From a virus, in IMG/VR virus record IMGVR_UViG_3300033141_001686, positions 1 through 39,933 of that record: a DNA stretch of 39,933 bases. One strand, written 5' to 3'. The notes under the pieces were generated by a model, which was given only the letters and a program-made list of their open reading frames with translations, ran no database searches and was not told the DNA's origin. Position 1 is the stretch's first letter, and every line of letters starts with the position of its first letter. Both the position numbers and the translations under genes were made by a program. Below are positions 3,736 through 39,933 of the stretch, piece by piece.

Positions 3736-5023
3736 CCTTAGACCTTACCAAAAAGACGGGCACGATTTCCTTGTACCCGCTAAGACAGGTGTGATAGGGG
3801 ACGACCCAGGACTAGGCAAAACCTGCCAGACTATAGTGGCAGCAGAGAGCTTAGGTAAATACCCTTGGGTTGTCGTCTGCCCCTCAACCGTTAAGAACCA
3901 GTGGAACAGAGAGATAGCAGAGTGGACAGATAAGTACACAATCACTCAGATAATTAGAACAGGTAAGGACCTGGTCCAACCTGCACATGTCTACATCGTA
4001 TCATATGGGTTGGCAGCTAAACTGTCGGCTCAGTTGGAAGAGATAGGCACTCTGATTATAGACGAGATCCACTACTGCAGATCTCTCTACTCTAAAAGAA
4101 CCAGAGAAGTCCTGGGCGGTGAGTTTTTAGGGGGGAAAGCTGAGAGGATATGGGGCTTAACAGGCACCTTAATCTTCAACAAGCCAATAGACTTGTACCC
4201 CATACTTTTATGCCTGTACCCTCAAGCATTGGTGAAGGCTCCGACATACATAGAGTTCGCCAAGAGATATAATAGCGGGTACTGGATAAGAGGTGCGTAC
4301 AGGTCAGAAGAGAACATGCGTATGGGAGAAGCTAAGAACACTGAAGAGCTCAAGTTCCTGATGGAAGGATTCATGCTCAGAAGGTTAAAAAGAGATGTGC
4401 TTGACGACCTCCCCCCTGTCCATGTTAACATGGTGGAAGTGGAGTTAACACCTGCACTGAAAAAGCTTAACAAGAAATACGCAGAACACAAAGGTAAAAA
4501 GAGAAACGAAATAAACGAGAGGCTCAAAGACCCACGAGGAGAACGAGTGATAATACGGAAAGAGTACGCATTAGCCAAAATAAAATTCGCTGTCGATTAC
4601 ATCGAGAACGATCTCCAATCCTATGAAAAAATTGCAGTCTTCACCTACCACAGAGATGTGGCAGAACAGCTACGTCTTGCCCTAAGAAAATACAAGCCCG
4701 TTGTATATCAAGGTGCCATGAACGATAGGGAAAAAGACGAGGCTGTTCAAGTATTTCAAGGGAAAGAATGTAGAGTTTTCATTGGCCAGGTTCGCGCATC
4801 TGGGACTGGCCTCGACGGACTACAAAAAGTTTGTAGTCGTGGCGTGTTGGTAGAGTGGGACGAAACACCTGGTGCGGTTACTCAGTTATTGGGTAGGCTT
4901 GATAGATTTGGGCAGATATCACCAGTGTACTTCTCTTTTCTAGTTGCCCCAGATAGTCTTGAGAGCGATATGATAACAAGTCTAATAAAGAAAAGAAAAG
5001 ACGTTAAGAAAATAATAGGTTAA
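3722..5023 (+). CDS. SNF2/SF2-type DNA helicase-translocase
   Basis: A 433-residue superfamily 2 ATPase. An N-terminal Q-motif-like LRPYQKDG is followed by Walker A DDPGLGKT (27-34), motif Ia VVCPSTVKNQW, the DEIH box (114-117), motif III GLTGT, and C-terminal motifs IAVFTYHRDVAEQL, YQGAMNDREK and motif VI QLLGRLDRFGQ. This order matches SNF2-family proteins of phage replication modules. I start it at ATG 3722 because the conserved LRPYQ follows at once; codons further upstream overlap the previous gene. A role in fork remodelling or recombination is inferred. A specific annealing or remodelling activity cannot be read from sequence. Confidence 0.9.
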   Translation: MNHTDLRPYQKDGHDFLVPAKTGVIGDDPGLGKTCQTIVAAESLGKYPWVVVCPSTVKNQWNREIAEWTDKYTITQIIRTGKDLVQPAHVYIVSYGLAAKLSAQLEEIGTLIIDEIHYCRSLYSKRTREVLGGEFLGGKAERIWGLTGTLIFNKPIDLYPILLCLYPQALVKAPTYIEFAKRYNSGYWIRGAYRSEENMRMGEAKNTEELKFLMEGFMLRRLKRDVLDDLPPVHVNMVEVELTPALKKLNKKYAEHKGKKRNEINERLKDPRGERVIIRKEYALAKIKFAVDYIENDLQSYEKIAVFTYHRDVAEQLRLALRKYKPVVYQGAMNDREKDEAVQVFQGKECRVFIGQVRASGTGLDGLQKVCSRGVLVEWDETPGAVTQLLGRLDRFGQISPVYFSFLVAPDSLESDMITSLIKKRKDVKKIIG

Positions 5024-11333: not shown

Positions 11334-11867
11334 ATGCAAGACACACACGTAATGATAGACATAGAAACATTAGGACTAGAGGAAGATGCTGTTATAGTTT
11401 CCATAGGTGCGACCGTTTTTAATATGCAAGGTATTATAGACGAACTGCATATTAAGGTTGGCCTAGACCAAAAGGATAGAAGCATAATGGCCTCTACTGT
11501 AGCTTGGTGGATGCAGCAGAGTAAAGAGGCTATAGATAGCACCTTCAAAGGCGACAGAGCGTTGTTGCCTGATTCAATAGCCACCTTGGGCAACTTCATA
11601 AATGAGTTCTCACCCACACTGGTTTGGTCTAACGGTTCTATGGACATAAATGTCCTCACCCACGCATACAAACAGTATTGCCTTGGCGTAACCCCTTGGG
11701 CGTATTACCAAGTTGCTGACTACAGAACTATAAGAAGCGTGCTAGATAAAGATGGTTCTTTAGGGAGAGAAGTGCCACCTACCATTAGGCATAACGCATT
11801 AGAAGATGCTAAGTGGCAAACTCAACATCTTCTGTTAATGCTCAATAAAGGGGCAATAGTTATTTAA
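11334..11867 (+). CDS. DEDDh 3'-5' exonuclease (RecE/Rv2179c-like)
   Basis: A 177-residue exonuclease-fold protein. Motif I is MIDIETLGL (D9, E11), motif II is WSNGSMDINVL (D104), and motif III is IRHNALEDAKWQ (H153, D158), giving the DEDDh set. WWMQQSKEA and YRTIRSVLD match the small stand-alone family related to Rv2179c and phage exonuclease VIII fragments. It probably trims DNA or RNA 3' ends. It has a strong AAAGGAG ribosome site and is the last gene of the + strand operon; its 3' end overlaps the convergent gene by eight bases. Confidence 0.88.
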   Translation: MQDTHVMIDIETLGLEEDAVIVSIGATVFNMQGIIDELHIKVGLDQKDRSIMASTVAWWMQQSKEAIDSTFKGDRALLPDSIATLGNFINEFSPTLVWSNGSMDINVLTHAYKQYCLGVTPWAYYQVADYRTIRSVLDKDGSLGREVPPTIRHNALEDAKWQTQHLLLMLNKGAIVI

Positions 11868-17016: not shown

Positions 17017-19995
17017 TCATTGAATCCTTCTTCTCTTTTTATCGTGGACACTCACCCCAACACCCATAAACGCTGCAGTGGCTAAAGGGATTATCGCCGA
17101 GGCGTCTAAATCGCTATTAGCTAACTCTACCGCTTCCTGCAGGGCTAAAGGTATTACGTTGCCGACTAGAGTTTCTAAAGGGGTTACCTCTTTACCTATG
17201 GCTGTTTTCCCCGACACCAGTGACAGTGCTATGCTTACAGGTGGTGACGCTTTATAACGGGCGAAATTTTTAATGGCGTTCGTTGTATCCAACCTGCTAG
17301 TAGCCTTGCGTATTCCCGCCGTATCTAGCCCTTGTAGTATAGGGGTAAGCAAAAGTCTCGCAGGTTGTGCGAACCCCGCCCATATATCTATCCTCGTATC
17401 GCCTATGACTATTTTACCGAAGTCAGACTTCTCTGGGTCAAGTCCAACTTTAGCCCCGCCTAACGACGCCAGTGTAAGAGTCAACATCCCCGTCCCCACA
17501 AAAGCTAACATGTCTTTTACCATTACTTTTCTTAACAGAGGGTCTTTCAGTCCTTTTACCATTCTTATTACAGTTTCTGGTCGAGAAACCGCAAACCTCG
17601 GGGAGAAAATCACCGTTGCTAGGTTACCCGCAGCATTTTCAAAATTGCCCAAGTTCCCCCGCCCACTGGCCGCGTTAACATATTTAGCAAAAGCTTCTAA
17701 CTGTTCCTTCGTGGCAGTGGGGTTGGCGTCCACAAAACTGTCAAAGGCTGACACCCTCATAAGGTTTAGGAAACCAGACATGTGCCTCTCTGAAGCCTTC
17801 ATAACGTGGCTCAACACTGGTATCTTGTTGGCCGCCCTAGATATGAACGCCTCTTCTCTTGAGCCTAAGGACTGGTTTATGTCAGACATAAACAGCCCTG
17901 ATTTTTCTCGGATCTCTTGTTTAGCCGATCTCCGTATCATTATGTCTAATTTATCCGCTGACGTCTGGCTGAAGAAAATCGGGAGAGACTTCGCTATGTT
18001 TTTTGCGAAAGTCACTGGTCTACCTATCCCCAACATTAATCCTTGTCTGAAGACAGCGGATATGTCCGCCGTAGCCAATAAAGCCCTTGGTAAGTTGGCT
18101 ATGTCTTTCGCAGCACCCACGAGTGTTCTCTTCCTCAGCTTGAATATCATCTCGTCTATTTCTCTTTTAAACTTTACAGCTTTCGCCGCTTCATCCAATA
18201 TCTTCTTGTTTACTTTCCTCTTATCCTTACCCTCTTTGGTTTTCGCTAACTCCTTTTCTAACCTCTTTATTTTATCTTCTTGGTTTTTAATCTGTTCAGC
18301 CAGTTTCTTTATCTTATCTTTTTCAGTTTTTGTAAGATCAGACCCTTTAGTATCTCTGGCTTTTGGAAGTAATTTAGCTATTTCGTATGTACCCTTATCT
18401 ATGGCGACTTGTTGTAGGGCCAGTGATCTACCTGCTTGTGACCCGGCTATGCCAGAGGCACCCCTTAACAGCAGTTGCTTAAGTATCAAATCGTTCTCCA
18501 CCTGGTCGAGCCTTTGTGCCTCCAGAGGATCTGTTTTATCGTCCACCAACTCCGCTTCTGCAGTGGCTCTATCTAGCTCAGACTCTACTTGGGCTGTTCT
18601 TAAGTGCAATCCCGCTCTCTCTTCAGGAGATATAGGTTTGTTGGTCGCTAGTACCTCTTCAGCTAAAGCCTCTGCTGACTTGTCTAACCCTTTGCTTTTA
18701 GCCCTTTCGAAAGTTTCCTGCTGAGTTTCCTTTGGCAAACCCTCCACCTCAACTATCGCTTCGGTTTCGGCTTTTGTAAGCTTGGTTGTTTTCTTAGGCT
18801 CTTCTACCTTAGGCTCAACTTTCTTCTCAACCTTAGGTTTCGCTTTGGCTTTCTCTTCTGGTGGTATTGTGAGAGTGGCTTTAACTTCACCTTCTGCTTT
18901 AGCCTTTATCTCAGGAGTTTTCTTTACGTCCTTGACCTCTGGCTTTGCCGTAGGTGCTTCCGCTTTTACTGCACCACCACCCGCACCGCCTAAGAACAAC
19001 CCTCCTACCAATGCTTCTAACCACCCTTCAAACAATTTAATGCCTTTATCGAAACCATAATGGGCGATCATGTTGCTACCTACAGTCTGAGACACCTCTT
19101 GTATTGGCTCAACTATAGCCCCCGCAGCGGCTCTTCCCGCTATCCCTGACCTCTGCAGCTTCTTTAGTGCTTTAAAACCGTGTTTTCCCAACAGCATGTT
19201 AAAAGGTAAAGCTTCACTACCGCTCGTCCATACGCCGTCCATAAGTGCTAGTGTCGCTGCCGCCTCTGGCTCTAAACCTTTAGCCCGAGCGTTCTCATAA
19301 GTCTCCGCAGTTTGGGTTACCCCGAAAAGCCCGGAAGCTATAGCGGGGCTTTTGGTTATGATGGTTGCTGCTATGGCTGTAGCGTAAAAGGGTATAGCCC
19401 TACCTATCACTTGTGCCGTTTTCGTTATAGGTGTGTGCCTAAACGTAGTGCCCTGTAAAGGTGCCTCTATTCCTTCGGAGGCTTTTTTCGCCCAGGCATC
19501 AGCCCAAGCTCTTCCTTTCTTGGCGAGACTTCCTCTTAAAGCTTCTGAGTTATCCTCTGATAGCTTTATAAACTCTTTAAGCTCTGGGTTTTGCTCCTGA
19601 AGCTTTTCTTTAAAACCAGTTAAATCTTCTGGCTCTCCCGCAAAAGCTCTCTCAGCTAAGAAAGCTGTTCCTTTTCCTAAAACGCCTACCACGTCTTCTT
19701 CAATACCTGCTCCCAGTGCTTTAAATATTTCTTTCACTGGGGTAAAGACGCCTGTCTCGGGAACCTTTGGTTCACCTATTGTTGGTGTGTCAGCCACGTC
19801 TGTCAGATATTTCTCGTCGTCAGCTATGGTTAACGTAGGGGTTACTGAATCATCCGCTTGGTTATCGAAGTCCTCCCAAGAGGCGTCTACGTCCTGCTCA
19901 GACATAACGCCCGGAGAAACCGCAGACTTATCCTCGTCGCTTTCATCTATGCCCGCCCACATTGCGTCTATGTCTTGCTCAGATAATACTGCCAT
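17017..19995 (-). CDS. Large internal virion/ejection protein (T7 gp16 position, LPD38-like C-terminus)
   Basis: A 992-residue protein. The N-terminus has two copies of a short peptide (VLSEQDIDAMWAGID, VMSEQDVDASWEDFD), then disordered acidic segments, a Lys/Glu/Pro-rich region near 345-410 and a charged coiled coil (about 535-600). The C-terminal 300 residues (for example FARYKASPPVSIALSLVSGK, then TAFMGVGVSVHD) resemble the LPD38 domain of large phage proteins. Position between gp15-like and gp17-like genes matches T7 gp16, which enters the cell first and forms the DNA channel. No lytic transglycosylase motif is seen. The gene overlaps its neighbour by one base. Confidence 0.75.
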   Translation of the reverse strand: MAVLSEQDIDAMWAGIDESDEDKSAVSPGVMSEQDVDASWEDFDNQADDSVTPTLTIADDEKYLTDVADTPTIGEPKVPETGVFTPVKEIFKALGAGIEEDVVGVLGKGTAFLAERAFAGEPEDLTGFKEKLQEQNPELKEFIKLSEDNSEALRGSLAKKGRAWADAWAKKASEGIEAPLQGTTFRHTPITKTAQVIGRAIPFYATAIAATIITKSPAIASGLFGVTQTAETYENARAKGLEPEAAATLALMDGVWTSGSEALPFNMLLGKHGFKALKKLQRSGIAGRAAAGAIVEPIQEVSQTVGSNMIAHYGFDKGIKLFEGWLEALVGGLFLGGAGGGAVKAEAPTAKPEVKDVKKTPEIKAKAEGEVKATLTIPPEEKAKAKPKVEKKVEPKVEEPKKTTKLTKAETEAIVEVEGLPKETQQETFERAKSKGLDKSAEALAEEVLATNKPISPEERAGLHLRTAQVESELDRATAEAELVDDKTDPLEAQRLDQVENDLILKQLLLRGASGIAGSQAGRSLALQQVAIDKGTYEIAKLLPKARDTKGSDLTKTEKDKIKKLAEQIKNQEDKIKRLEKELAKTKEGKDKRKVNKKILDEAAKAVKFKREIDEMIFKLRKRTLVGAAKDIANLPRALLATADISAVFRQGLMLGIGRPVTFAKNIAKSLPIFFSQTSADKLDIMIRRSAKQEIREKSGLFMSDINQSLGSREEAFISRAANKIPVLSHVMKASERHMSGFLNLMRVSAFDSFVDANPTATKEQLEAFAKYVNAASGRGNLGNFENAAGNLATVIFSPRFAVSRPETVIRMVKGLKDPLLRKVMVKDMLAFVGTGMLTLTLASLGGAKVGLDPEKSDFGKIVIGDTRIDIWAGFAQPARLLLTPILQGLDTAGIRKATSRLDTTNAIKNFARYKASPPVSIALSLVSGKTAIGKEVTPLETLVGNVIPLALQEAVELANSDLDASAIIPLATAAFMGVGVSVHDKKRRRIQ

Positions 19996-25576: not shown

Positions 25577-25608
25577 TTTTAAAAAGGTGCCCCCCGGATA
25601 GGGGGCAC
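25577..25608 (-). terminator. Rho-independent terminator after the capsid/decoration genes
   Basis: Read on the - strand, an 8-bp stem GTGCCCCC/GGGGGCAC (25608-25601 with 25594-25587) with a six-base loop is followed by CTTTTTAAAA. It separates the capsid genes from the tail genes, in the same place as the T-phi terminator of T7, and probably lowers tail expression relative to capsid. Confidence 0.85.
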
Positions 25609-25626
25609 TTTTAGATTTTTACTCGC

Positions 25627-32164: not shown

Positions 32165-32677
32165 TTATAGCATATCATATAAATTAGGCGGTTCTCCGTC
32201 CGCCTCTGCTACCTCACCGCTTATGCTCGCTAGCCAAGAAGGGTAGTCCATCTTGGCAGAAACATTAAGATTCTTCTCTACTGCTTTACCTGCTATTCTC
32301 TCGTTTATCATTTTGAATATTTTGTAGTCACCTCTTGCCGCTTGTTCAGCCATCTTGATACTGGCTACCTCGCCGTTGGTCATACCCCGATAATCTTCTT
32401 CGTCCGGGTCCTCTATATATCTTCGCTCCGCGCCGTCTTCTATCTCGTCTAAAGTCTGGGTTGGGTCTGGTATCTTACGAAGTTTATAGGGGAGCATGGT
32501 TGCAGCAAAGAGAGTCCGGTCAACTATGTTTCTGTTAACCTTATCGAGATTGTAGTTCGCCATAGCAGGCACTCCGTTATCAAAGACCAACAGCCTTCTT
32601 GATGAAACCACCAAGGGCTGTTGGTCAGCGGGAGATACCGACTCTGCGGTCGAGACAGGGTCAGTATTGATTTCCAT
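32165..32677 (-). CDS. Candidate terminase small subunit
   Basis: A 170-residue protein located just upstream of TerL. The N-terminus is disordered. The middle has KIPDPTQTLDEIEDGAERRY and GMTNGEVASIKMAEQAARGD, followed by KIFKMINERIAGKAVEKNL, a helix pattern (repeat-dose helix then 'NERIAGK...') typical of proteins annotated as small terminases of podoviruses. No clear HTH motif was seen. Assignment depends mainly on position and the 'IxxRIxGKxxE' type segment. The start overlaps the preceding stop (TAATG). Confidence 0.65.
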   Translation of the reverse strand: MEINTDPVSTAESVSPADQQPLVVSSRRLLVFDNGVPAMANYNLDKVNRNIVDRTLFAATMLPYKLRKIPDPTQTLDEIEDGAERRYIEDPDEEDYRGMTNGEVASIKMAEQAARGDYKIFKMINERIAGKAVEKNLNVSAKMDYPSWLASISGEVAEADGEPPNLYDML

Positions 32678-33408
32678 TACAGTTGGCTAATCAGGGTAGC
32701 GTTACCTTCTTCGACGGTAGCCCCTGCTCCTTCGCCGTCGCCATTATCGATGTTGGAAGCGTTTGCAGCTTCTTCAGCCTGCTTAGCTATCCTGGCTTCT
32801 TTGATCTTTTCCTTGATAGTATCTTCGCCCCAAGCTGCTGTGGCTTTAATGCCAAGCCCTTTAGCGATCTCTATAAGCTCTTCTTTGCTAACTGGTGGCT
32901 TGTCTACTGGTGCGGCGCCTCCTGCTAACTGAGGGTTAAGAGCAAGCATCCTAGAATGGGCGCCCATAGTCTTACCGTCTCGCTCTTGCTTTAACGCGAG
33001 CTTCTTAGGTGATTGCAAGCCAAGGTGTAAAGCATCTCTTAGCGCCTGGGTGGTTGGGTAATAATCTGCTACAAGGTCGATCTTCTTAACCCTAGCGAAT
33101 TTGATTAGGTCTGCACGAGACATTAATCTTACTCTCTGCTCTTCGGGAAGAAACTCAAGATTAGCACCTTTAGTGATAGGTCTTGTTTCTTCTACGAAAA
33201 CTGTTCTTACTCTTACGAAAGAGGTGTCAAGCTTCTTTAATACTACTGGTAGAAAATGCTTCTTAATAGAAGGTACTGCTACCGCTAAATTACTTTCCTC
33301 TATTCGTATTTTTTGTGATGGGTATTGTCGTCGGACTTTCTTACCTGTTGCGGAATCTTCACTGATGTAAGTTCCTGATACTGTTACTTCAAAAATTGCT
33401 TCTGCCAT
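32677..33408 (-). CDS. Hypothetical late protein with two SAP/LEM-like helical modules, 243 aa
   Basis: I start at ATG 33408 (MAEAIFEVTVSGTYISEDS), which follows GAGGAGG; the frame is open further upstream but lacks a site. After a beta-rich N-terminus are two helix-turn-helix-like segments: SRADLIKFARVKKIDLVADY and SKEELIEIAKGLGIKATAAW. Both follow the L-x-x-A-x-x-x-x-I pattern of SAP/LEM/Rho_N-type DNA-binding modules. It is the first long gene of the late operon and lies just downstream of a strong promoter. A DNA-binding or packaging role is possible. Confidence 0.68.
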   Translation of the reverse strand: MAEAIFEVTVSGTYISEDSATGKKVRRQYPSQKIRIEESNLAVAVPSIKKHFLPVVLKKLDTSFVRVRTVFVEETRPITKGANLEFLPEEQRVRLMSRADLIKFARVKKIDLVADYYPTTQALRDALHLGLQSPKKLALKQERDGKTMGAHSRMLALNPQLAGGAAPVDKPPVSKEELIEIAKGLGIKATAAWGEDTIKEKIKEARIAKQAEEAANASNIDNGDGEGAGATVEEGNATLISQL

Positions 33409-33455
33409 AATAAATATACCTCCTCGAATTTGACTAGAACATAGCCTTACCATTA

Positions 33456-33484
33456 AGTATATAGATTGGAGGAGGGGGTGTCAA
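33456..33484 (-). promoter_or_regulatory. Strong sigma70 promoter for the late operon
   Basis: On the - strand, a perfect TTGACA at 33484-33479 is followed after 17 bases by TATACT at 33461-33456. It lies upstream of the SAP/LEM-like, terminase and portal genes. The spacer is pyrimidine-rich (CCCCCTCCTCC). Confidence 0.85.
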
Positions 33485-33494
33485 GTTTTTGGTG

Positions 33495-33704
33495 TTACAT
33501 CCCGTGATACGGGTCGTACTTGTTTTCTACTCTAGCTACCTTTTTGAACTTCTCCGCTATCATGCTACTGGAAGTTTTTATGCTTAGTTCTCTTCCATCA
33601 GTTAATCTTATCCTGCCCCCAGAATCTTTTTGCTTTATGGATGTTACCTGAAAGACGTTAACTATTATGGTTCCTTCTTCCTCTGTATGCAGATGCGCGA
33701 ACAT
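33495..33704 (-). CDS. Small FlbD-like hypothetical protein, 69 aa
   Basis: A 69-residue protein reading MFAHLHTEEEGTIIVNVFQV and RIRLTDGRELSIKTSSSMIA. The spacing of an N-terminal beta-hairpin, a 'LTDGRE' turn and a C-terminal helix looks like FlbD/YlzI-type or Sm-like small proteins, but I cannot assign a function. It has a GGGAGGG site that directly follows the tRNA-like gene, so both are transcribed together. Confidence 0.6.
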   Translation of the reverse strand: MFAHLHTEEEGTIIVNVFQVTSIKQKDSGGRIRLTDGRELSIKTSSSMIAEKFKKVARVENKYDPYHGM

Positions 33705-33721
33705 ATTTAGCCCTCCCTAAG

Positions 33722-33794
33722 GGGTACAGCTCGGAATCGAACCGAAGTCTACACACCTCCGGGGTGTGATTGCCTGCCACTAGCCTACTGTACG
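33722..33794 (-). tRNA. tRNA-like gene, possible anticodon CGG (Pro), degenerate
   Basis: The - strand gives a 73-base cloverleaf: acceptor CGTACAG/CTGTACC (C1-C72 mismatch), TA at 8-9, D-loop AGTGGCA, anticodon stem CACAC/GTGTG, five-base variable loop TAGAC and T-arm TTCGG-TTCGATT-CCGAG. The T-arm is canonical. The seven-base anticodon loop CCCGGAG places CGG at 34-36, but position 33 is C instead of the nearly universal T. No CCA is encoded and the discriminator is C. Isotype is therefore uncertain. Its 5' end coincides with the start predicted from the upstream promoter. Confidence 0.7.
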
Positions 33795-33800
33795 TTTTAA

Positions 33801-33829
33801 ATTATACTACCTGATTCTGTTTGAATCAA
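33801..33829 (-). promoter_or_regulatory. Strong sigma70 promoter in front of the tRNA-like gene
   Basis: On the - strand, TTGATT at 33829-33824 is followed after 17 bases by a perfect TATAAT at 33806-33801. The predicted start (about seven bases further) falls at 33794, the first base of the tRNA-like cloverleaf. Confidence 0.8.
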
Positions 33830-34031
33830 ATTGAATTATTCTGTTTCAAGAACGTAAAATTTTTTGGGAAAATTTTTTCTCTGTCACGTCCTGTCTCAGG
33901 TATCTCGAGTGAAAAGATAGGTGTGGTGCATAAGCCCTCTACCTCCCCGCCGCACAGCCCGCGAATCTCTGGGGTTGGCAGGGGTCGCAAAAGGGCACCC
34001 CCCTCTTCACTTTTTAATAAATGTACCCGCA

Positions 34032-34072
34032 GGTGCACGTGCACCCAGACGCGCGTTATAACACACGTGTGT
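34032..34072. promoter_or_regulatory. Two CACGTG-centred palindromes
   Basis: GGTGCACGTGCACC (34032-34045) and ACACACGTGTGT (34061-34072) are perfect palindromes with the same six-base core, and the cores are 28 bases apart. The whole stretch, including GCGCGT between them, alternates purine and pyrimidine. This suggests paired operator sites for a dimeric regulator, or a segment prone to Z-DNA or cruciform formation. Confidence 0.6.
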
Positions 34073-34140
34073 GTGGTATGTCAAGCAGTAATCACTCATA
34101 TTCAAGTTCTTTAATATAAGGTGCAAATCACAACAATAGC

Positions 34141-34206
34141 ATCAATCATGCAAATAGTATCAATCATGTATTGAGGTGATTGAGATGATTGAAGCGATTG
34201 AGGGGA
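34141..34206. repeat. 9-bp tandem repeats and inverted TCAATCATG boxes
   Basis: ATCAATCATG occurs at 34141-34150 and 34159-34168. Four adjacent 9-mers follow without gaps: TTGAGGTGA, TTGAGATGA, TTGAAGCGA and TTGAGGGGA (34171-34206). TGATTGA in the array is the reverse complement of TCAATCA in the flanking boxes. Spaced at about one per helical turn, they look like iterons for an initiator protein or a cooperative repressor array. Confidence 0.8.
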
Positions 34207-34264
34207 TTTGTCAAACCCATAACATAACAGCTTTTATCGGTGCGTTCACTGAAAGCCAGTAATA

Positions 34265-34332
34265 GGTGGAAAGCCGTTTTTGAAAAAGTTCAAACTCTCT
34301 GTGGGAGGTGCGGGATTCCCACCGATTCCACC
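34265..34332. other. Nested inverted repeat, possible structured RNA
   Basis: An outer 7-bp pairing GGTGGAA (34265-34271) with TTCCACC (34326-34332) encloses an inner 6-bp pairing GTGGGA (34301-34306) with TCCCAC (34317-34322), and a small TTTTTGAAAAAG dyad. The arrangement would fold as one hairpin with arms on either strand. No promoter directly in front was recognised. Confidence 0.45.
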
Positions 34333-34497
34333 CTACACCACTGCTACCCCTATAATATACTACTTTAAAGTTATAGAGTAATAAAAAAGAACAGTGCAGT
34401 TATACCAAGGGATTCAACAAACGTACCCAAATTTCCTGTTATTGACGTTTTTAGTTATTTAAAGCTGCCACCTTCTTACTCCTGTCTGAAATGTACC

Positions 34498-34517
34498 TCA
34501 ATCATGCAAATCAATCA
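34498..34517. repeat. TCAATCATGCAAAT copy and adjacent TCAATCA box
   Basis: The 14-mer TCAATCATGCAAAT at 34498-34511 repeats exactly the one at 34142-34155, and a second TCAATCA follows at 34511-34517. They end seven bases before the -35 box of the early promoter, the position expected for an activator or repressor site. Confidence 0.75.
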
Positions 34518-34523
34518 AATCTC

Positions 34524-34551
34524 TTGACAAATGATTTAGCCGTGTTATACT
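34524..34551 (+). promoter_or_regulatory. Strong early sigma70 promoter
   Basis: A perfect TTGACA (34524-34529), 16 bases, then TATACT (34546-34551). The predicted start is near 34558. It points into the block of small early genes and, through the joined ends, into the replication genes; no later strong + promoter was recognised. Confidence 0.85.
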
Positions 34552-34557
34552 GGTAAC

Positions 34558-34797
34558 AGATAAAACGAAAAGAACACGGCATCCACACCGCCACCGCAGC
34601 TTACTAATTGGTTAATCAATCTGTCCCACACCATCAGTGAACATGGGACAAGCAAAAACTATTTGATGGTAACTATTAAACAACACGGTTATTGATTATT
34701 AAAGACTAAAGCCGTGACCCTTATGAGGAGTAAAGTAAACTTTCCTCGTATCACTAGCCAAAGCGTATTGGTGCTGTGTTGGTTGATAGTCTAATGT
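34558..34797 (+). other. Long structured 5' leader of the early transcript
   Basis: About 240 bases without a credible gene follow the predicted start. Hairpins can be drawn: TGTCCCA (34621-34627 area) with TGGGACA about 20 bases later, and GAGG-AGT-AAAG with CTTT-CCTC near 34724-34746. Leader length and structures suggest post-transcriptional control or protection of the early message. Confidence 0.55.
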
Positions 34798-34853
34798 TTC
34801 TAAATGGTTACGCCATAAGGCGTACCGATTTTAAGATATTGGAGGGTGGTAAT
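34798..34853 (+). promoter_or_regulatory. Stem-loop leader element, copy 1
   Basis: The 5' arm TTCTAAATGG is followed by a perfect 6-bp hairpin TACGCC-ATAA-GGCGTA (34809-34824), then the 3' arm CCGATTTTAAGATATTGGAG holding the ribosome site. The outer arms can pair (TCT/AGA, AAAT/ATTT, GG/CC with bulges). The inner hairpin and 3' arm recur nearly unchanged before the next gene, with a compensating T-A to C-G change in the outermost inner-stem pair. Confidence 0.75.
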
Positions 34854-34982
34854 ATGAAATGCGACGTGTGCAAATGTGACACAGATTTATCATACTACAG
34901 AGAAGACGAAAACGAAACCGTCTGCGAAGACTGCTACATCGAATGGCAAGGCGAATTATTAAACAAGGGGTTCGGGCTATGA
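34854..34982 (+). CDS. Small zinc-ribbon protein, 42 aa
   Basis: The protein MKCDVCKCDTDLSYYREDEN, with CEDC further on, contains two CxxC knuckles (C3-x2-C6 and C-x2-C near residue 25), a minimal zinc ribbon. ATG 34854 is chosen because it follows GGAGGGTGGTAAT; the frame is open upstream through the leader hairpin but without another site. It is the first gene of the early transcript, so a host-takeover role is plausible. The function is unknown. Confidence 0.75.
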   Translation: MKCDVCKCDTDLSYYREDENETVCEDCYIEWQGELLNKGFGL

Positions 34983-34994
34983 TAGATGATAACG

Positions 34995-35039
34995 CACGCC
35001 ATAAGGCGTGACGATTTTAAGATATTGGAGGGTGGCGAT
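34995..35039 (+). promoter_or_regulatory. Stem-loop leader element, copy 2
   Basis: CACGCC-ATAA-GGCGTG (34995-35010) is followed by ACGATTTTAAGATATTGGAG and GGTGG, nearly identical to copy 1. The outermost stem pair is C-G here and T-A in copy 1, so base pairing is kept while sequence changes. The 5' arm of copy 1 is not conserved here. Confidence 0.75.
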
Positions 35040-35252
35040 ATGGTCGTTAGTTTTAAAAACGATAGACAAAAGAAAGTGGTTGAAGCCATGGGGAAAGCGC
35101 AGATAGACCAGGGCGCCACTCTCAGCGACACCATAATGTGGAAAGTTTTAGGTGTTAGTTGCCCGTTTTGGGTTTGCGACTACCCAAACGGAAAGCAAAA
35201 ACGATACGCCATAAATGAATTAGGGTATGATTGTTTCTTACCTATCAACTAG
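35040..35252 (+). CDS. Hypothetical early protein, 70 aa
   Basis: The protein starts MVVSFKNDRQKKVVEAMGKA and has VSCPFWVCDYPNGKQKRYAI, with two cysteines. I chose ATG 35040, directly after the leader's GGAGGGTGG. No family recognised. The frame is also open upstream through the leader, as in the first gene, so an extended form starting at 34986 cannot be fully excluded. Confidence 0.7.
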   Translation: MVVSFKNDRQKKVVEAMGKAQIDQGATLSDTIMWKVLGVSCPFWVCDYPNGKQKRYAINELGYDCFLPIN

Positions 35253-35267
35253 AAAAGAGGGTGATCT

Positions 35268-35423
35268 GTGATAGACGATAATGCACCTTATATAGTAGTT
35301 GACAGCCAGACAGGAAAAACCGTCTACACCACGACGTATAAAAACAGGAACCGGGCACGAGCAAGAGCAAACAAACTTGATTTACAATATGGCGGGTATC
35401 GCTATAAAGCAAAATTAGTATAG
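35268..35423 (+). CDS. Small basic early protein, 51 aa
   Basis: GTG 35268 opens the frame MIDDNAPYIVVDSQTGKTVY, TTTYKNRNRARARANKLDL, QYGGYRYKAKLV. The pattern (acidic start, 'VVDSQTGK', then 'NRARARANKLD...YGGYRYKAK') is that of short conserved phage proteins of unknown function. The ribosome site is AAAGAGGGTGATCT. A terminator-like hairpin lies 10 bases after the stop. Confidence 0.75.
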   Translation: MIDDNAPYIVVDSQTGKTVYTTTYKNRNRARARANKLDLQYGGYRYKAKLV

Positions 35424-35433
35424 TATGTAACCT

Positions 35434-35459
35434 GAGCAAGTTATAAAACTGCTCTTTTA
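35434..35459 (+). terminator. Terminator-like hairpin GAGC-A-AGTT/AACT-GCTC with U-run
   Basis: An 8-bp stem with one bulged A and an ATAA loop (35434-35454) is followed by TTTTAT. A related hairpin (GAGCA/TGCTC, 37632-37651) stands at the same distance in front of leader copy 4. It could act as a partial terminator or processing site within the early transcript. Confidence 0.65.
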
Positions 35460-35460
35460 T

Positions 35461-35510
35461 ATTCTAATTGGTTGGGTTGTATAGCCTAACGAATTTAGAT
35501 ATAAGAGGTG
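35461..35510 (+). promoter_or_regulatory. Stem-loop leader element, copy 3
   Basis: The 5' arm ATTCTAATTGG, then an inner stem GTTGGGTT-GTAT-AGCCTAAC (35471-35490), then the 3' arm GAATTTAGATATAAGAGG. The outer arms resemble those of copies 1 and 4 while the inner stem sequence is completely different but still pairs. Confidence 0.7.
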
Positions 35511-35517
35511 TAAAGAT

Positions 35518-35976
35518 ATGAATAAGAAAAGACTTAAAGATATGAATAGAGGCGACAGGTTTTCAGTCAATTTAGGATTTAATAAAGAAGTGTATGTGTT
35601 TAATAGGCACGCATTGGCATCCGACGAATACTACGCTGTCAGTGAGAAAACAGGAAACGCGGATGCTTGGTCAAGCGGAGATGCTAGGTTTTACATGGTA
35701 GAGACAATTAAGATCGGAATCCCTTCTATGCAGAGTCTGGAAAAAGGCGACGAGCTTGTATCTGGCTCTAGAAGAAGTATAAAAGTAACCGCCATAGCTG
35801 AAGAGGGGTTCACAGCTAGGTTCACCGATTCAGCACAACAAGAAGCGTATTTCAAGTTCCAAGAGCTATCCTGGTATACGTACAAGCAAGAGCCAAGAGA
35901 AACAATCACAATCGGTAAACATTCCTATGACAAGGAAGATTTTGAAAAAGTCGTAAAAGATTTAAAAACGGTATAA
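35518..35976 (+). CDS. Hypothetical early protein, 152 aa
   Basis: Function not recognised. It begins MNKKRLKDMNRGDRFSVNLG and looks like a compact beta-rich domain of about 110 residues (FNKEVYVFNRHALASDEYYA; SGSRRSIKVTAIAEEGFTAR), with a C-terminal helix DKEDFEKVVKDLKTV. Two internal segments, DMNRGDRFSV and SLEKGDELVS, share the pattern of a strand after a 'GD' turn and may be a duplicated small barrel. The start follows leader copy 3 and an AAGAGGTG site. Confidence 0.7.
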   Translation: MNKKRLKDMNRGDRFSVNLGFNKEVYVFNRHALASDEYYAVSEKTGNADAWSSGDARFYMVETIKIGIPSMQSLEKGDELVSGSRRSIKVTAIAEEGFTARFTDSAQQEAYFKFQELSWYTYKQEPRETITIGKHSYDKEDFEKVVKDLKTV

Positions 35977-36019
35977 ATGTTAGTTATGTATCTCGGGGCG
36001 TACTTGTTGCGCCTCTGAT

Positions 36020-36035
36020 AGATAATTAATTATCT
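36020..36035. promoter_or_regulatory. 16-bp perfect palindrome AGATAATTAATTATCT
   Basis: It lies between two early genes, 27 bases before a short membrane peptide gene. A further short dyad GGGGCG/CGCCTC precedes it. It may be an operator, or with the upstream dyad a leader similar in spirit to the other early hairpins. Confidence 0.45.
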
Positions 36036-36062
36036 GGTAACACGAAGAGAACAGGAGCAAGT

Positions 36063-36155
36063 ATGATAGTAGATGCATTCTTATTCACTATGGTTTTAGG
36101 GCTAAACTGGTGTTTGTTTAAATACCATATCAACGACAAAGGGGTTATATTATGA
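36063..36155 (+). CDS. 30-residue membrane peptide
   Basis: ATG 36063 opens a frame reading MIVDAFLFTMVLGLNWCLFK and YHINDKGVIL. Most of the first 20 residues are hydrophobic, giving one membrane segment. It has a good ACAGGAGCAAGT site, and the stop TGA overlaps the next ATG (ATGA), indicating coupling. Function unknown; small early membrane peptides often target host functions. Confidence 0.65.
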   Translation: MIVDAFLFTMVLGLNWCLFKYHINDKGVIL

Positions 36156-36442
36156 GTGAATTATTAAAACCTACACTAAATAGCAAAGAGAAATACGACG
36201 ATGACGACTACAAGCAAATGCTGGATGATTGCCACGAAGAGATAAAAATAGGTTGTTTGACATTCAGCCCGTCGCAAGTCTTGGAAGAATGCGACCCCAT
36301 AGCATATAACTGTGGTTTTAGTGATTACCAAGAATATGAGGACGTTTGGGAATGTCCAATATGTGACACTGAACACGATGATGAAGACGAAGCAACGTAT
36401 TGTTGCCAAGAAGAAACAGAGGAGGAAGAAGAAAATGTATAA
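36152..36442 (+). CDS. Acidic zinc-ribbon protein, 96 aa
   Basis: An acidic protein (MSELLKPTLNSKEKYDDDDY) with a C-terminal zinc ribbon: WECPICDTEHDDEDEATYCC, where CPIC and CC (about residues 69-86) can bind zinc, followed by an acidic tail (EETEEEEENV). The strong negative charge could mimic DNA. The start overlaps the peptide gene stop and the end overlaps the next gene. Function unknown. Confidence 0.75.
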   Translation: MSELLKPTLNSKEKYDDDDYKQMLDDCHEEIKIGCLTFSPSQVLEECDPIAYNCGFSDYQEYEDVWECPICDTEHDDEDEATYCCQEETEEEEENV

Positions 36443-36713
36443 AAAGATAACAGTTAAGAGCATGATAAGTGATAGTGGAAATGCGATAGCAAACCAGTTT
36501 GTTATAACAACCCCAATGCATAAGGTGTTCCAGTCTTATAATAGCGTGATAGCTATAAAAGGGTTTGCAACTGGTCAGATTGTACTAGACAGAAACACAT
36601 GGGACTACTCAAGGACAACGGGTAAGTATAGAAATATATTTCTAGGGGAAAACACAGCTGAAACCAGAAAGAAAATAAAATCAGGTGAGTACAAACTGAA
36701 AGATTTAAACTAG
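36435..36713 (+). CDS. Basic hypothetical early protein, 92 aa
   Basis: Start ATG 36435 (MYKKITVKSMISDSGNAIAN) is chosen because it follows GAGGAAGAAG; the frame is open upstream but inside the zinc-ribbon gene. The protein is basic and beta-prone (QFVITTPMHKVFQSYNSVIA) and ends TRKKIKSGEYKLKDLN. No family recognised. It overlaps the upstream gene by eight bases, so translation is coupled. Confidence 0.7.
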   Translation: MYKKITVKSMISDSGNAIANQFVITTPMHKVFQSYNSVIAIKGFATGQIVLDRNTWDYSRTTGKYRNIFLGENTAETRKKIKSGEYKLKDLN

Positions 36714-36722
36714 GGGGGAGCC

Positions 36723-36932
36723 ATGGACAAGATAATACTTAAGAACCACAGAAAAGACTTAACCGATGTCGATGTACTGATATTCATTAAAAAAGTTATG
36801 CAAAGTGGTAAGATATCAAAGCAGGATGGCAAGCCATTGTACTGTTTTATTACTAAGTTTGAGATGGTTGATAATGTAACAGTTAGCTGCAGACTAACAA
36901 AAACTGGAACAACAGTATTTACAATATGGTAG
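36723..36932 (+). CDS. Hypothetical early protein, 69 aa
   Basis: Reads MDKIILKNHRKDLTDVDVLI and VTVSCRLTKTGTTVFTIW. A neutral to basic alpha/beta small protein with no recognised family. ATG 36723 follows a strong GGGGGGAGCC site, nine bases after the previous stop. Function unknown. Confidence 0.7.
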   Translation: MDKIILKNHRKDLTDVDVLIFIKKVMQSGKISKQDGKPLYCFITKFEMVDNVTVSCRLTKTGTTVFTIW

Positions 36933-36947
36933 GTTATCTTTCCACCG

Positions 36948-36973
36948 CAAAGCCTCAGATTATCGGGGCTTTG
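36948..36973 (+). promoter_or_regulatory. 9-bp stem-loop between early genes
   Basis: CAAAGCCTC (36948-36956) pairs with GGGGCTTTG (36965-36973) across AGATTATC. Flanking CCA and TGG, and TATC and GGATA, can extend the stem with internal loops. No U-tract follows. The design recalls the other early leaders. Confidence 0.65.
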
Positions 36974-37017
36974 AAATGGACGGATAGTTCAAATAAAAAC
37001 AAAGTGAGGTATGTACT

Positions 37018-37410
37018 ATGGGATCAGGATACGAAGCCGGAGGAACCCTTGATATAAGTTTAATTAATGACGAGATTATTCACCTGTTCAACGATATAGA
37101 ATCAATAAATGATGGAGCACAGAGCGAGAAACTTTTGGGAGTATCAACAATCCCCCACTTCTCACTAAATGCAGAAGACAAAGAGATTGAACTGGAATAT
37201 GACCAGTGTGACCCTGACGATCAAATGCTCTGCTTAAAGGCCATTATCGAGAAGATCAAGCACACCGGAGCGGTTATTGAAGGCCAGATAAATTGGAACT
37301 GCCTTTCTGATAGTGAGAGCTTCGGGTATTATGAAGTAGAGGACGGAGTAATAACAGAGTATAAGGGGGTAGTTGATTACGTCCTCTGTGACGATCAAAA
37401 TTTTAAATAG
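37018..37410 (+). CDS. Hypothetical early protein, 130 aa
   Basis: An acidic protein: MGSGYEAGGTLDISLINDEI, then ELEYDQCDPDDQMLCLKAII, and GQINWNCLSDSESFGYYEVE. No family recognised. The last third ('INWNC...FGYYEVEDGVIT') looks like one compact beta-hairpin unit. The start follows a GTGAGGTATGTACT stretch and the stem-loop at 36948-36973. By charge and position it could be an inhibitor of a host DNA-binding protein; that is speculation. Confidence 0.7.
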   Translation: MGSGYEAGGTLDISLINDEIIHLFNDIESINDGAQSEKLLGVSTIPHFSLNAEDKEIELEYDQCDPDDQMLCLKAIIEKIKHTGAVIEGQINWNCLSDSESFGYYEVEDGVITEYKGVVDYVLCDDQNFK

Positions 37411-37420
37411 ACACGTAAGC

Positions 37421-37442
37421 ATCCATTCTTAATTGAGTGGAT
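37421..37442 (+). promoter_or_regulatory. 8-bp stem-loop between early genes
   Basis: ATCCATTC (37421-37428) pairs with GAGTGGAT (37435-37442) across TTAATT, including one T-G pair. It stands between a stop codon and the possible GTG start at 37450, without a U-tract. Confidence 0.55.
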
Positions 37443-37449
37443 ACCATAG

Positions 37450-37713
37450 GTGTTTAACATATATTCAGCGATATATGCACCATGCTACTCTATAGAACTT
37501 TGGTCGGTGGGAGTAGAATCAAACGAGAGAACGGTAGTTATCCTGTACTTTGACCAAGGGCAGGGGGCCGACATCGGGGAGAACGATCATGTACGCACCA
37601 CAGGGAGAGCCTGTGATATCCTAAAGAGACTGAGCACTCTCAAACCTGCTCACTTTATATTCTCATTGGGTATCCTGTACTGGGTACCGAATCTAAATAT
37701 AAGGTGGTGCTGA
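37450..37713 (+). CDS. Possible early protein, 87 aa
   Basis: A frame from GTG 37450 reads MFNIYSAIYAPCYSIELWSV, VILYFDQGQGADIGEND and RACDILKRLSTLKPA. The ribosome site is poor and the last 25 residues run through the hairpin leader that precedes the next gene, which makes the true 3' end doubtful. The frame fills a space that would otherwise be empty in a tightly packed operon. No family recognised. Confidence 0.45.
   Translation: MFNIYSAIYAPCYSIELWSVGVESNERTVVILYFDQGQGADIGENDHVRTTGRACDILKRLSTLKPAHFIFSLGILYWVPNLNIRWC
37654..37707 (+). promoter_or_regulatory. Stem-loop leader element, copy 4
   Basis: TTTATATTCTCATTGG, an inner stem GGTATCC-TGTACT-GGGTACC, then GAATCTAAATATAAGGTGG. The flanks match copy 3 closely (TTATATTCT and ATATAAG shared), while the inner stem differs but still pairs. 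A GAGCA/TGCTC hairpin precedes it at 37632-37651, as at copy 3. Confidence 0.7.
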
Positions 37714-37714
37714 T

Positions 37715-37975
37715 ATGGATATAAAAAAGTTTGTGGAATCTTGGTACCTATTTGTTGTAAATCACTCTGGGGGTAAGGACAGCCAAGCCATGATGCTACT
37801 TATTGAGCAGCTGGTACCCAGAGAGCAGATCATGGTTGTACATGCTGCACTGGGGGGTGGGTGGACTACAGTTCAATGTTGTGACTGTGGTGAAAAAGTA
37901 TTTGGTAATAATCTACACCACGCTATACAGCGGTGGAACGCTCTAGAAAAGGAGAAAAATAGTGTTAATAATTAA
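37715..37975 (+). CDS. Truncated PP-loop (PAPS reductase-like) domain fused to a Lar-like zinc ribbon, 86 aa
   Basis: Residues 11-47 (LFVVNHSGGKDSQAMMLLIE, then PREQIMVVHAALG) are the ATP-binding PP-loop start of phage PAPS reductase-family proteins, with SGGKDS at 18-23. The remaining two-thirds of that domain is absent. Instead residues 50-80 (WTTVQCCDCGEKVFGNNLHH, then AIQRWNALEK) resemble the C-terminal zinc knuckle and 'A-x-x-x-WN' helix of Lar restriction-alleviation proteins; the usual N-terminal CPFCGG of Lar is absent. This looks like a chimera formed by recombination. Reductase or sulfurtransferase activity is unlikely. The start follows leader copy 4. Confidence 0.75.
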   Translation: MDIKKFVESWYLFVVNHSGGKDSQAMMLLIEQLVPREQIMVVHAALGGGWTTVQCCDCGEKVFGNNLHHAIQRWNALEKEKNSVNN

Positions 37976-38066
37976 CGGAATTTACGTAGACACAGCTTCG
38001 GCGCTAGCCAGAAGGTTTGATGAAGTAAATGAAGAGGAGGAAGAACAGCTATGCCAGAAGAGATAG
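37962..38066 (+). CDS. Small acidic peptide, 34 aa
   Basis: GTG 37962 follows AAAAGGAGAAAAATA and gives MLIINGIYVDTASALARRFD then EVNEEEEEQLCQKR. It overlaps the end of the chimera gene by 14 bases and the start of the next gene by 16 bases. The stretch of glutamates is also the next gene's GAGGAGGAAG ribosome site. Function unknown. Confidence 0.55.
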   Translation: MLIINGIYVDTASALARRFDEVNEEEEEQLCQKR

Positions 38067-38275
38067 TAGCTATGCAACTACAGCAACAACTGACAAAGAC
38101 AGAGTACGCTATAAAATCTGCGTCACGTCTTCTCAAAGAAGAGCCAAAAGACATAAAAGTACTTCAAGGTCTCAGAGTTTCCCTTGGTGAATTGATAACA
38201 AAGGTGAACTCAATCGTCTTAAAAATAAAAGTAGAGGAGGAAAACGCAAAATGTCAGGAAAAACAGAAGTTATGA
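38051..38275 (+). CDS. Coiled-coil hypothetical protein, 74 aa
   Basis: A fully helical, charged protein (MPEEIVAMQLQQQLTKTEYA; EEPKDIKVLQGLRVSLGELI) with a heptad-like pattern across most of its length. It probably forms a dimer or pairs with another small protein. No family recognised. It overlaps the next gene by 25 bases. Confidence 0.7.
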   Translation: MPEEIVAMQLQQQLTKTEYAIKSASRLLKEEPKDIKVLQGLRVSLGELITKVNSIVLKIKVEEENAKCQEKQKL

Positions 38276-38481
38276 TGGCGGTAACGATAGAAGAATACCC
38301 CAGTTTTGACCGCGCTTTGGTCAAAGCCATAGAGGACTACAAAGCTCAGAAGATGGAAGACCCAGATACATACGCTGAAGACTTATGGAACGTGAAATTC
38401 AAATTGGAAAGAGTAACGGTTGAAGATAACTATAAAAGAAAAGAGTACACCTATGTATTCCAGATACAGGAGGAGGACTAA
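38251..38481 (+). CDS. Hypothetical early protein, 76 aa
   Basis: Reads MSGKTEVMMAVTIEEYPSFD, then KAIEDYKAQKMEDPDTYAED and ends TYVFQIQEED. ATG 38251 has a strong GAGGAGGAAAACGCAAA site inside the preceding gene. Acidic; no family recognised. The end lies one base before the next ATG. Confidence 0.7.
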   Translation: MSGKTEVMMAVTIEEYPSFDRALVKAIEDYKAQKMEDPDTYAEDLWNVKFKLERVTVEDNYKRKEYTYVFQIQEED

Positions 38482-38482
38482 T

Positions 38483-38836
38483 ATGTTAGAGGCATGTAAT
38501 CATCTAACAGGCGGAGATCTATTCGCCCTGATTATGTCAGTTTATTTGATAGGGTTTATAGTAGGGAAGGTTGCGCCACGGAAAAAGAAAAAACAGATCG
38601 TTGATTTCTCCCGTTTCAGGTCTACCTATTACTCACAGACGGGGAAACACCTGCACGTCACGGTATCTTTTGATAGAATGGGGCATGTTGTATACTTGGA
38701 AGACGAGAAAGGGCAGACACATTTAGACACAGTGGCTTGCTCTATACCTTCTTTAACTGAGGCGTTAGACGAATTAGAAGTAAACATAAACTACCTGCTT
38801 GAGCGGGGAGAACTTTTTACGAAATGGGGAAAGTAG
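38483..38836 (+). CDS. Membrane-anchored hypothetical protein, 117 aa
   Basis: ATG 38483 follows AGGAGGAGGACTAAT. The N-terminus MLEACNHLTGGDLFALIMSV continues into YLIGFIVGKVAPRKKKK: one membrane helix (about 12-30) followed by a positive patch, so the C-terminal domain is probably cytoplasmic. That domain has HLHVTVSFDRMGHVVYLEDE and a long helix at the end. Function unknown; it could bring a partner to the membrane. Confidence 0.7.
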   Translation: MLEACNHLTGGDLFALIMSVYLIGFIVGKVAPRKKKKQIVDFSRFRSTYYSQTGKHLHVTVSFDRMGHVVYLEDEKGQTHLDTVACSIPSLTEALDELEVNINYLLERGELFTKWGK

Positions 38837-38837
38837 T

Positions 38838-39032
38838 ATGGGCGTTAAACTAGAGGTAGAGCACGAGCCTACGGAGGACGAGCTTAAAGGAATGAAGGTA
38901 GGGGACCAGACTTGGGACAGAAGGCTTCAGTTAGGAATAGATAGAGTCCACGGAGGGTGGCTTTACTACGGGTGGGACCACACCGACAACAGGATACACC
39001 CTTCTACTTTTGTGCCGGAGGTGGCCAAATAA
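38838..39032 (+). CDS. Hypothetical early protein, 64 aa
   Basis: Start ATG 38838 (MGVKLEVEHEPTEDELKGMK), preceded by GGGGAAAGTAGT; the frame is open upstream only within the previous gene. The second half has LGIDRVHGGWLYYGWDHTD, an aromatic beta segment. No family recognised. Its stop overlaps the next ATG (TAATG). Confidence 0.7.
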   Translation: MGVKLEVEHEPTEDELKGMKVGDQTWDRRLQLGIDRVHGGWLYYGWDHTDNRIHPSTFVPEVAK

Positions 39033-39433
39033 TGAACACATCAGAATTTGAAGAAAATGTGGAGCACAGAATTGATATGATAAGATCAGTACTAACCAGT
39101 AAGGGCGAAGAGTACGCAGTAGGAGGTGACAGGCTGCACAATTTCAAAGTAGCGGCCAGAGTTAAGGGCGAAACTATGGAGAAAGCCCTAGAAGGTATGC
39201 GTATCAAGCATGACGTATCTATTATGGATATGATTAACAACCCAGATAGCGTTACTGAAGCTATGATAGACGAGAAGATAGGCGACCGTATAAACTACGA
39301 CGTCATACTCTCCGCCATCTTTTTAGAGAGAATAAAGCTCAAGAAAGAAAAAGATTACTGGAAGTTCAAAGACAGCCCAAAAGTGACGCCCATCGAGGCT
39401 TTATCTGGTGGTCACTTAGAGATGGAGGCTTAG
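39032..39433 (+). CDS. Nmad1/DUF1599-like protein, 133 aa
   Basis: ATG 39032 gives MNTSEFEENVEHRIDMIRSV. The core EEYAVGGDRLHNFKVAARVK, followed by EKALEGMRIKHDVSIMDMI, matches the conserved pattern 'KG-EYA-DRL-NF ... AL-G---KH--SI-D' of phage proteins annotated as nucleotide-modification-associated domain 1 or DUF1599. The His and Asp residues in this pattern may bind metal. It lies two genes before the MazG-like enzyme, which fits a role in nucleotide metabolism; the reaction is not established. Confidence 0.72.
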   Translation: MNTSEFEENVEHRIDMIRSVLTSKGEEYAVGGDRLHNFKVAARVKGETMEKALEGMRIKHDVSIMDMINNPDSVTEAMIDEKIGDRINYDVILSAIFLERIKLKKEKDYWKFKDSPKVTPIEALSGGHLEMEA

Positions 39434-39436
39434 GCT

Positions 39437-39679
39437 ATGAAGAAAAGGTACGAGAAGTTGGTACACAAACTATCGGCAGTTGTCCTCTCCGCTGATGGCA
39501 GGCACAAACAAGCAACAGCTAGATTTATGACCCTAGTAACAGATGAACTAGATAAAGAGAGGTTCTCCCACAGCAAGAATGTAAGGAACACCATACACAT
39601 TGGGTTGGCACAGGCTAGGCGAGATTTCAATAAGAAATTCGGAAAGTTTAAACGTATAGAAGAGGCGGTGAGACTATGA
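39437..39679 (+). CDS. Small basic hypothetical protein, 80 aa
   Basis: Reads MKKRYEKLVHKLSAVVLSAD and THIGLAQARRDFNKKFGKF-like segments (NTIHIGLAQARRDFNKKF). Basic and helical. Ribosome site GGAGGCTTAGGCT. The stop and the MazG-like ATG overlap (ATGA). No family recognised. Confidence 0.7.
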   Translation: MKKRYEKLVHKLSAVVLSADGRHKQATARFMTLVTDELDKERFSHSKNVRNTIHIGLAQARRDFNKKFGKFKRIEEAVRL

Positions 39680-39933
39680 CAGAAACTAAATATGAGCACA
39701 GAATAGAGGACGACTTCTATAACGGCATGAAAGAGTGTAGGCAAAACGATAAAGAGAAACGCACTGCCAAATATATGTTTAAGAAAGTGGCGGGGTTTGG
39801 TAGGGGTATGCTGACCAAGCTAAGAGACAACAATCACAAGCCACACTGGAAAGACTACGACATAAGTTATTGCCTCCACAGATTAGACGAAGAAGTAGTT
39901 GAATTGAAAGAAGCGAACAAAAAAGGTATCGTT
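39676..39933 (+). CDS. MazG-like nucleotide pyrophosphohydrolase, N-terminal part
   Basis: ATG 39676 overlaps the previous stop (ATGA) and the frame runs off the right edge. It contains DYDISYCLHRLDEEVVELKE (about residues 62-81): the E-E-x2-E metal-binding helix of MazG-type enzymes. Its continuation at positions 16-144 supplies the second acidic helix and stop, for 128 residues in total. These proteins hydrolyse non-canonical or excess (d)NTPs. An upstream helical extension (about 60 residues, basic) is also present. Confidence 0.85.
   Translation, partial: MTETKYEHRIEDDFYNGMKECRQNDKEKRTAKYMFKKVAGFGRGMLTKLRDNNHKPHWKDYDISYCLHRLDEEVVELKEANKKGIV
39919..39933. repeat. Terminal direct repeat, copy 2
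   Basis: Identical to bases 1-15; it closes the circle in frame through the MazG-like gene. Confidence 0.95.

Follow-up and report, generated by a model that had tools for sequence, protein, structure and literature searches.

What does a long hairpin do when it recurs, with altered stems, in front of several early genes of one phage? The question is raised by an IMG/VR virus record, IMGVR_UViG_3300033141_001686, whose 39,933 bases were analysed in full and are called the window here. The window carries a podovirus gene set (head-tail adaptor, terminase, tail proteins, primase/helicase and DNA polymerase). Its late genes lie on the minus strand and its early genes, which start at 34.8 kb, on the plus strand. 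An earlier, sequence-only reading had described four stem-loop leaders in the early region, each just before a start codon, with conserved flanks and swapped inner stems; the coordinates and sequences that it gave for these copies 1 to 4 are correct. Here, we report that copies 1, 3 and 4 belong to one 54-nt hairpin family, that other strong hairpins occupy the remaining sizeable gaps of the early operon, and that the evidence points to a signal acting as mRNA. We further predict, as an even call, that the array consists of RNase III-type processing sites, at which the early mRNA would be divided and its ribosome-binding sites uncovered.

Results

Three leaders share one covarying 54-nt hairpin

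Copies 1, 3 and 4 are each 54 nt long, align without gaps or indels, and have identical predicted structures (Table 1). The common fold comprises 10 bp, a 2x2 internal loop, 4 bp, a 1x1 G.G mismatch, 8 bp and a tetraloop; the pairs left open are one middle pair and the tetraloop-closing pair in copy 4, and one inner pair in copy 1. The copies as first described are real but fall short of the whole unit: pairing extends into the AT-rich flanks, which form the 10-bp outer stem, and this makes the element longer and more regular. Its arms are TCTAATGTTT/AGATATTGGA in copy 1, CTTTTATATT/GATATAAGAG in copy 3 and ACTTTATATT/AATATAAGGT in copy 4. The inner stems do always pair, as had been claimed, but to call them unrelated was too simple, as they occupy the same columns of one ungapped alignment.

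Across these three sequences from one genome, standard pairs make up 95.5% of the 66 pair cells, and both sides have changed between copies at 12 of the 22 pairs. Neither value was equalled in any of 500 shuffles. A sliding control is biased, because the structure was derived from the same three copies; the z-scores of the single copies against dinucleotide shuffles, given in Table 1, show structure beyond chance and are independent of the alignment. The internal-loop bases (C.A, U.U and G.G) behave differently from the stems, being invariant at six of six positions compared with 14 of 44 paired bases (p about 0.002).

Copy 2 is, judging from its sequence, a recent partial duplicate of copy 1. 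The T-A to C-G change that had been noted between the inner stems of these two copies is present. Treating all four leaders as equal copies holds for the inner stem and 3' half, which copy 2 keeps, but not for the 5' arm, which no longer matches copy 1, nor for the fold, which is weak. Copies 3 and 4 are 74% identical. The GAGCA/TGCTC hairpin described upstream of these two is also present, although a lengthened outer stem competes with the one at copy 4 in the minimum free energy fold. Copy 1 has no such accessory hairpin upstream.

Hairpins occupy every sizeable gap of the early operon

A sigma-70-type promoter-like site lies upstream of every hairpin copy and is presumed, on sequence grounds, to be the early promoter. 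As the one strong promoter ahead of the array, it would place the early genes beyond it on a single transcript. Within this operon there are three further hairpins (35979, 36934 and 37408; Table 1), missed by the sequence-only reading, that are similar in size to the 54-nt family and unrelated to it in sequence. Every gap of at least 57 nt between 34560 and 37715 contains a hairpin, and shorter gaps contain none. Genome-wide (39.9 kb), seven plus-strand hairpins reach z <= -5, and six of the seven fall inside the 3-kb early operon. Internal loops are present in these strong array hairpins, five of which have 19-27 bp while the 37408 hairpin has 17 bp. Most hairpins of the array contain about 23-25 stacked positions, or two helical turns, with small internal loops between them. 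Intrinsic terminators were considered and rejected: terminator-like sites require a T run after the stem, and no array hairpin is among them.

Table 1. Features of the early operon. Values of z are against dinucleotide shuffles; SD, Shine-Dalgarno sequence.
Feature	Position	Strand	Details
Promoter-like site, TTGACA-16-TATACT, with TG before second hexamer	34524..34551	+	sigma-70-type; 11 of 12 consensus matches; best on + strand within 33000-39933
Copy 1, 54-nt hairpin, before ATG at 34854	34790..34843	+	z -6.4; 21 bp; dot-bracket same as copies 3 and 4
Copy 2, partial duplicate of copy 1 (inner stem, 3' half, SD), 5' outer arm lost, before ATG at 35040	34976..35029	+	47 nt at 91% identity; z -3.2
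Accessory GAGCA/TGCTC hairpin, just upstream of copy 3	35433..35453	+	RNAfold
Copy 3, 54-nt hairpin, before ATG at 35518	35454..35507	+	z -5.3 on +, -3.0 on -
Long irregular hairpin (9 bp, 1x1, 4 bp, 2x1, 8 bp), right after stop 35976, before ATG 36063	35979..36027	+	z -5.3 on +, -2.4 on -
Long irregular hairpin (6 bp, 1x1, 4 bp, 3x3, 9 bp), right after stop 36932, before ATG 37018	36934..36987	+	z -5.1 on +, -5.0 on -
Hairpin at stop codon of gene 37018-37410	37408..37456	+	z -5.5 on +
Accessory TGAGCA/TGCTCA hairpin, upstream of copy 4, alternative fold	37631..37652	+	sequence
Copy 4, 54-nt hairpin, before ATG at 37715	37652..37705	+	z -7.1 on +, -4.9 on -

The constraint lies on the mRNA

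The stems of the 54-nt family contain nine G-U pairs and no A-C pairs. An unbiased scan gave better z-scores on the plus than on the minus strand for most of the array, the exception being the 36934 hairpin, which scored equally on both. Because G-U pairs occur without A-C pairs and most hairpins are more structured on the plus strand, the constraint appears to be on mRNA, which points to a signal that acts as mRNA and not as double-stranded or template-strand DNA. The covarying stems, the fixed internal-loop bases, the greater structure of the mRNA strand and the presence of a hairpin in every sizeable gap of what is presumably one early transcript all support the earlier proposal of a selected RNA element acting in stability, translation or processing, and this is the best reading of the family.

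The array resembles RNase III sites of T7

T7 is the best-documented case of an early polycistronic mRNA that is processed by RNase III. The enzyme cuts the T7 early transcript at five sites (PMC4858673), with the cut in R1.1 at nt 5887 (PMC8708148). When T7 sites R0.3, R0.5, R1, R1.1 and R1.3 were folded with the same code as the hairpins here, they showed 18-29 bp and z-scores of -1.7 to -4.2, which are weaker than in the array. R1 folds into 4 bp, 1x1, 5 bp, a 2x3 internal loop, 9 bp and a tetraloop, and the 36934 hairpin is the closest here to this plan. Cut positions other than that of R1.1 are after Dunn and Studier (1983): R1 is cut on the 3' side of its internal loop, 33 nt before gene 1, and the T7 sites lie mostly 27-35 nt before start codons, with R1.1 at 120 nt.

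Like the T7 sites, the hairpins here are long and irregular, span about two helical turns and contain internal loops, and irregular hairpins of about 20 bp or more are typical of both. As in T7, several occur along one polycistronic early message behind a host-type promoter, each in a gap that leads up to a gene; the single transcript is deduced here from that promoter. Hairpins of this form and setting characterise the RNase III processing sites in T7. The two sets differ in what is conserved. T7 sites share the inner stem AAGGT..GGCCTT, whereas here the inner stems vary and the internal loops and flanks are fixed; the T7 inner-stem sequence, which is T7-specific and no requirement of the enzyme, was not found here. 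Unlike the T7 sites, those of the 54-nt family also hold the Shine-Dalgarno (SD) sequence inside the outer stem. In the intact leaders the SD is partly paired, with a predicted accessibility of 0.29, 0.34 and 0.04 for copies 1, 3 and 4, respectively; removal of the 5' side is predicted to raise these values to 0.78, 0.70 and 0.31. The internal loops of the family lie about 20-27 nt upstream of the start codon.

Because the hairpins have a T7-like build and placement, and because removing their 5' part opens the SD, we favor RNase III-type processing. One strong sigma-70-type promoter would produce a polycistronic early mRNA. The cut, about 20-27 nt upstream of the start codon and at the 3' side of an internal loop, would be made by host RNase III or by a comparable double-strand-specific nuclease. 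We infer that cutting there would divide the message into mono- and dicistronic pieces and free the SD held by the outer stem for translation. The domain search found no RNase III domain among the phage-encoded proteins, so a host enzyme is implied. The fixed 54-nt architecture with its fixed mismatches (C.A, U.U and G.G) would have been copied before different genes and would then have diverged under selection for pairing.

Several observations weigh against RNase III-type processing. As the enzyme is little sequence-specific, there is no strict reason to expect invariance of the internal-loop bases, although these may set single-strand cutting or mark the binding of another protein. The hairpins have no sequence similarity to the T7 sites, copy 2 retains the SD block without the long stem, and a hairpin scan found no such arrays in the early regions of more distant relatives that share replication and packaging genes. 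A more specific possibility, which we put forward tentatively, is a phage-specific family of cis-acting RNAs: a 54-nt hairpin whose three fixed mismatches would have a dedicated reader, an RNA-binding protein or nuclease of phage or host, and which would serve as a portable leader before unrelated early genes with SD access switched by processing.

Alternative roles for the hairpins

The main rival to RNase III processing is a translational operator, in which an RNA-binding protein of phage or host would read the C.A, U.U and G.G bases, hold the outer stem over the SD and thereby co-regulate the genes behind copies 1, 3 and 4. Invariance of the loop bases in otherwise variable stems fits such a role, as do the partial pairing of the SD in these copies and the restriction of the element to a subset of early genes. 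We nevertheless consider an operator rather unlikely. The hairpins at 35979, 36934 and 37408 lack those loop bases, leaving the wider array in need of another reason; the first two also stop short of the SD, and no RNA-binding protein was identified among the early genes.

The hairpins could instead remain uncut and protect cistron ends at the 5' or 3' side, blocking exonucleases or RNase E entry and so stabilising segments of the message. Their positions are suggestive, since three (35979, 36934 and 37408) start at or just after stop codons and others sit right before start codons. However, uncut internal hairpins create no ends that need protection, and neither the invariant internal loops nor the pairing of the SD is explained, which makes this role quite improbable.

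A signal for antitermination, read by RNA polymerase from the nascent RNA, would be comparable to the put sites of phage HK022, which consist of two stem-loops. Copies 3 and 4 do have two adjacent stem-loops, the GAGCA hairpin and the long hairpin, but copy 1 has no upstream hairpin, and there are several copies, each linked to a start codon and not to the promoter. Moreover, the sole terminator-like site on the plus strand of the operon (36297-36315) is inside a gene, and such sites are no commoner than in shuffles. We regard antitermination as very unlikely. It is equally hard to credit that the leaders have no function and were carried along with gene cassettes by recombination, their hairpin shape being incidental. 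The recent duplication behind copies 1 and 2 (91%) and the 74% identity of copies 3 and 4 would suit this account, which is already disfavored: pairing was kept while the copies diverged, with both sides changed at 12 pairs, and the other gaps are filled by unrelated strong hairpins.

Promoters of the phage N4 type, in which DNA hairpins serve a virion RNA polymerase, are likewise disfavored and in our estimate scarcely conceivable, because N4 requires a template-strand hairpin and here the non-template strand pairs better. N4 early promoters do share with the array hairpins of differing stems ahead of early genes. The N4 hairpins are short (the solved structure shows a stem of 7 bp) and serve the virion RNA polymerase as DNA of the template strand (PMC4496689); compared with such a hairpin and its 3-nt loop, the 54-nt unit is a 22-bp irregular hairpin with a tetraloop. 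A virion protein encoded at 17017-19995 (-) does match the PHROG named virion RNA polymerase (phrog_2206, E 1e-9), but the match spans profile positions 240-623 of 3406, outside the transcription domain, which in the N4 enzyme is residues 998-2103 (PMC4496689). No single-subunit RNA polymerase domain was detected in the genome by a search that finds that of T7; PF00940 was found in the T7 control and not in this genome, an absence that is not absolute because virion RNA polymerases are highly diverged. An N4-type promoter was rejected on these grounds. The protein at 17017-19995 is 992 amino acids long, and its match, confined to the N-terminal part, perhaps reflects a shared ejection-protein region.

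Distribution of the element

The SAS and extended SAS (ESAS) repeats of cluster K mycobacteriophages are similar to the leaders in that they contain inverted repeats and lie just ahead of the start codon in small non-structural genes, with a conserved block that includes the SD next to them (PMC3203893). Changes in the ESAS arms generally do not support RNA pairing, and the authors favor a DNA-binding site (PMC3203893), whereas the changes here are compensatory, favoring RNA; the sequence is also different and the copies are far fewer. The 13-bp SAS GGGATAGGAGCCC is absent from the leaders of copies 1-4, as read directly.

No Rfam 15 family scored above its gathering threshold in the window, and cmsearch of this genome returned no further copy. 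The covariance model had no matches in 25 whole relative records or in 115 loci. A strict sequence-pattern scan of IMG/VR and GTDB contigs for relatives found nothing; with a relaxed pattern, three viral and three genomic matches were obtained, which do not form the hairpin and were discarded as chance-like. The IMG/VR and GTDB contigs yielded no relative that carries this early region. Relatives sought through TerL, primase/helicase, DNA polymerase and two early proteins were only distant phages, and the hairpin scan detected no comparable arrays in their early regions. The best of them (60% in TerL) is a 12.7-kb contig with only 2 kb upstream of TerL. Another relative (L005) contains, at 3655-4404, a long low-complexity GGCTATGGCGATGGCTCTGG-type repeat array between primase and terminase with a very stable fold.

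Other hairpins and neighbouring genes

Strong hairpins were also observed elsewhere in the window. An inverted repeat at 32585-32626, GACCAACAGCC/GGCTGTTGGTC, scores z -6.2 on the plus and -6.8 on the minus strand and lies within a minus-strand coding frame (32165-32677). The hairpin at 25583-25612 resembles a bidirectional terminator; it separates two structural genes of the minus strand and has runs of A and of T at its sides. Another, at 11796-11841, is situated at the convergence point of the early and late operons.

The small gene behind copy 4 (37715-37975, +) looks chimeric: an N-terminal PAPS reductase fragment that bears the SGGKDS loop is joined to a Cys-rich tail with a weak likeness to the restriction-alleviation protein Lar. 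The early protein encoded at 36435-36713 (+) has 57-59% amino-acid identity to genes of pelagiphages HTVC203P and HTVC109P, and there is local DNA similarity to Skadi phages too, while the remaining early region hardly matches; we read it as a gene exchanged between marine phages. The phage itself is probably of marine origin. Both ends of the window carry one 15-base direct repeat, which suggests that the genome is complete and permuted.

Discussion

Compared with that of T7, the array described here is denser and more regular, and it occurs in a phage of a different lineage that has no detectable T7-type RNA polymerase. The covariation that supports it is between paralogous copies inside one genome. 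If the prediction is true, early mRNA marked for RNase III would be a more general phage strategy, and the 54-nt hairpin would be a well-defined RNA whose internal mismatches are testable determinants of cleavage or binding.

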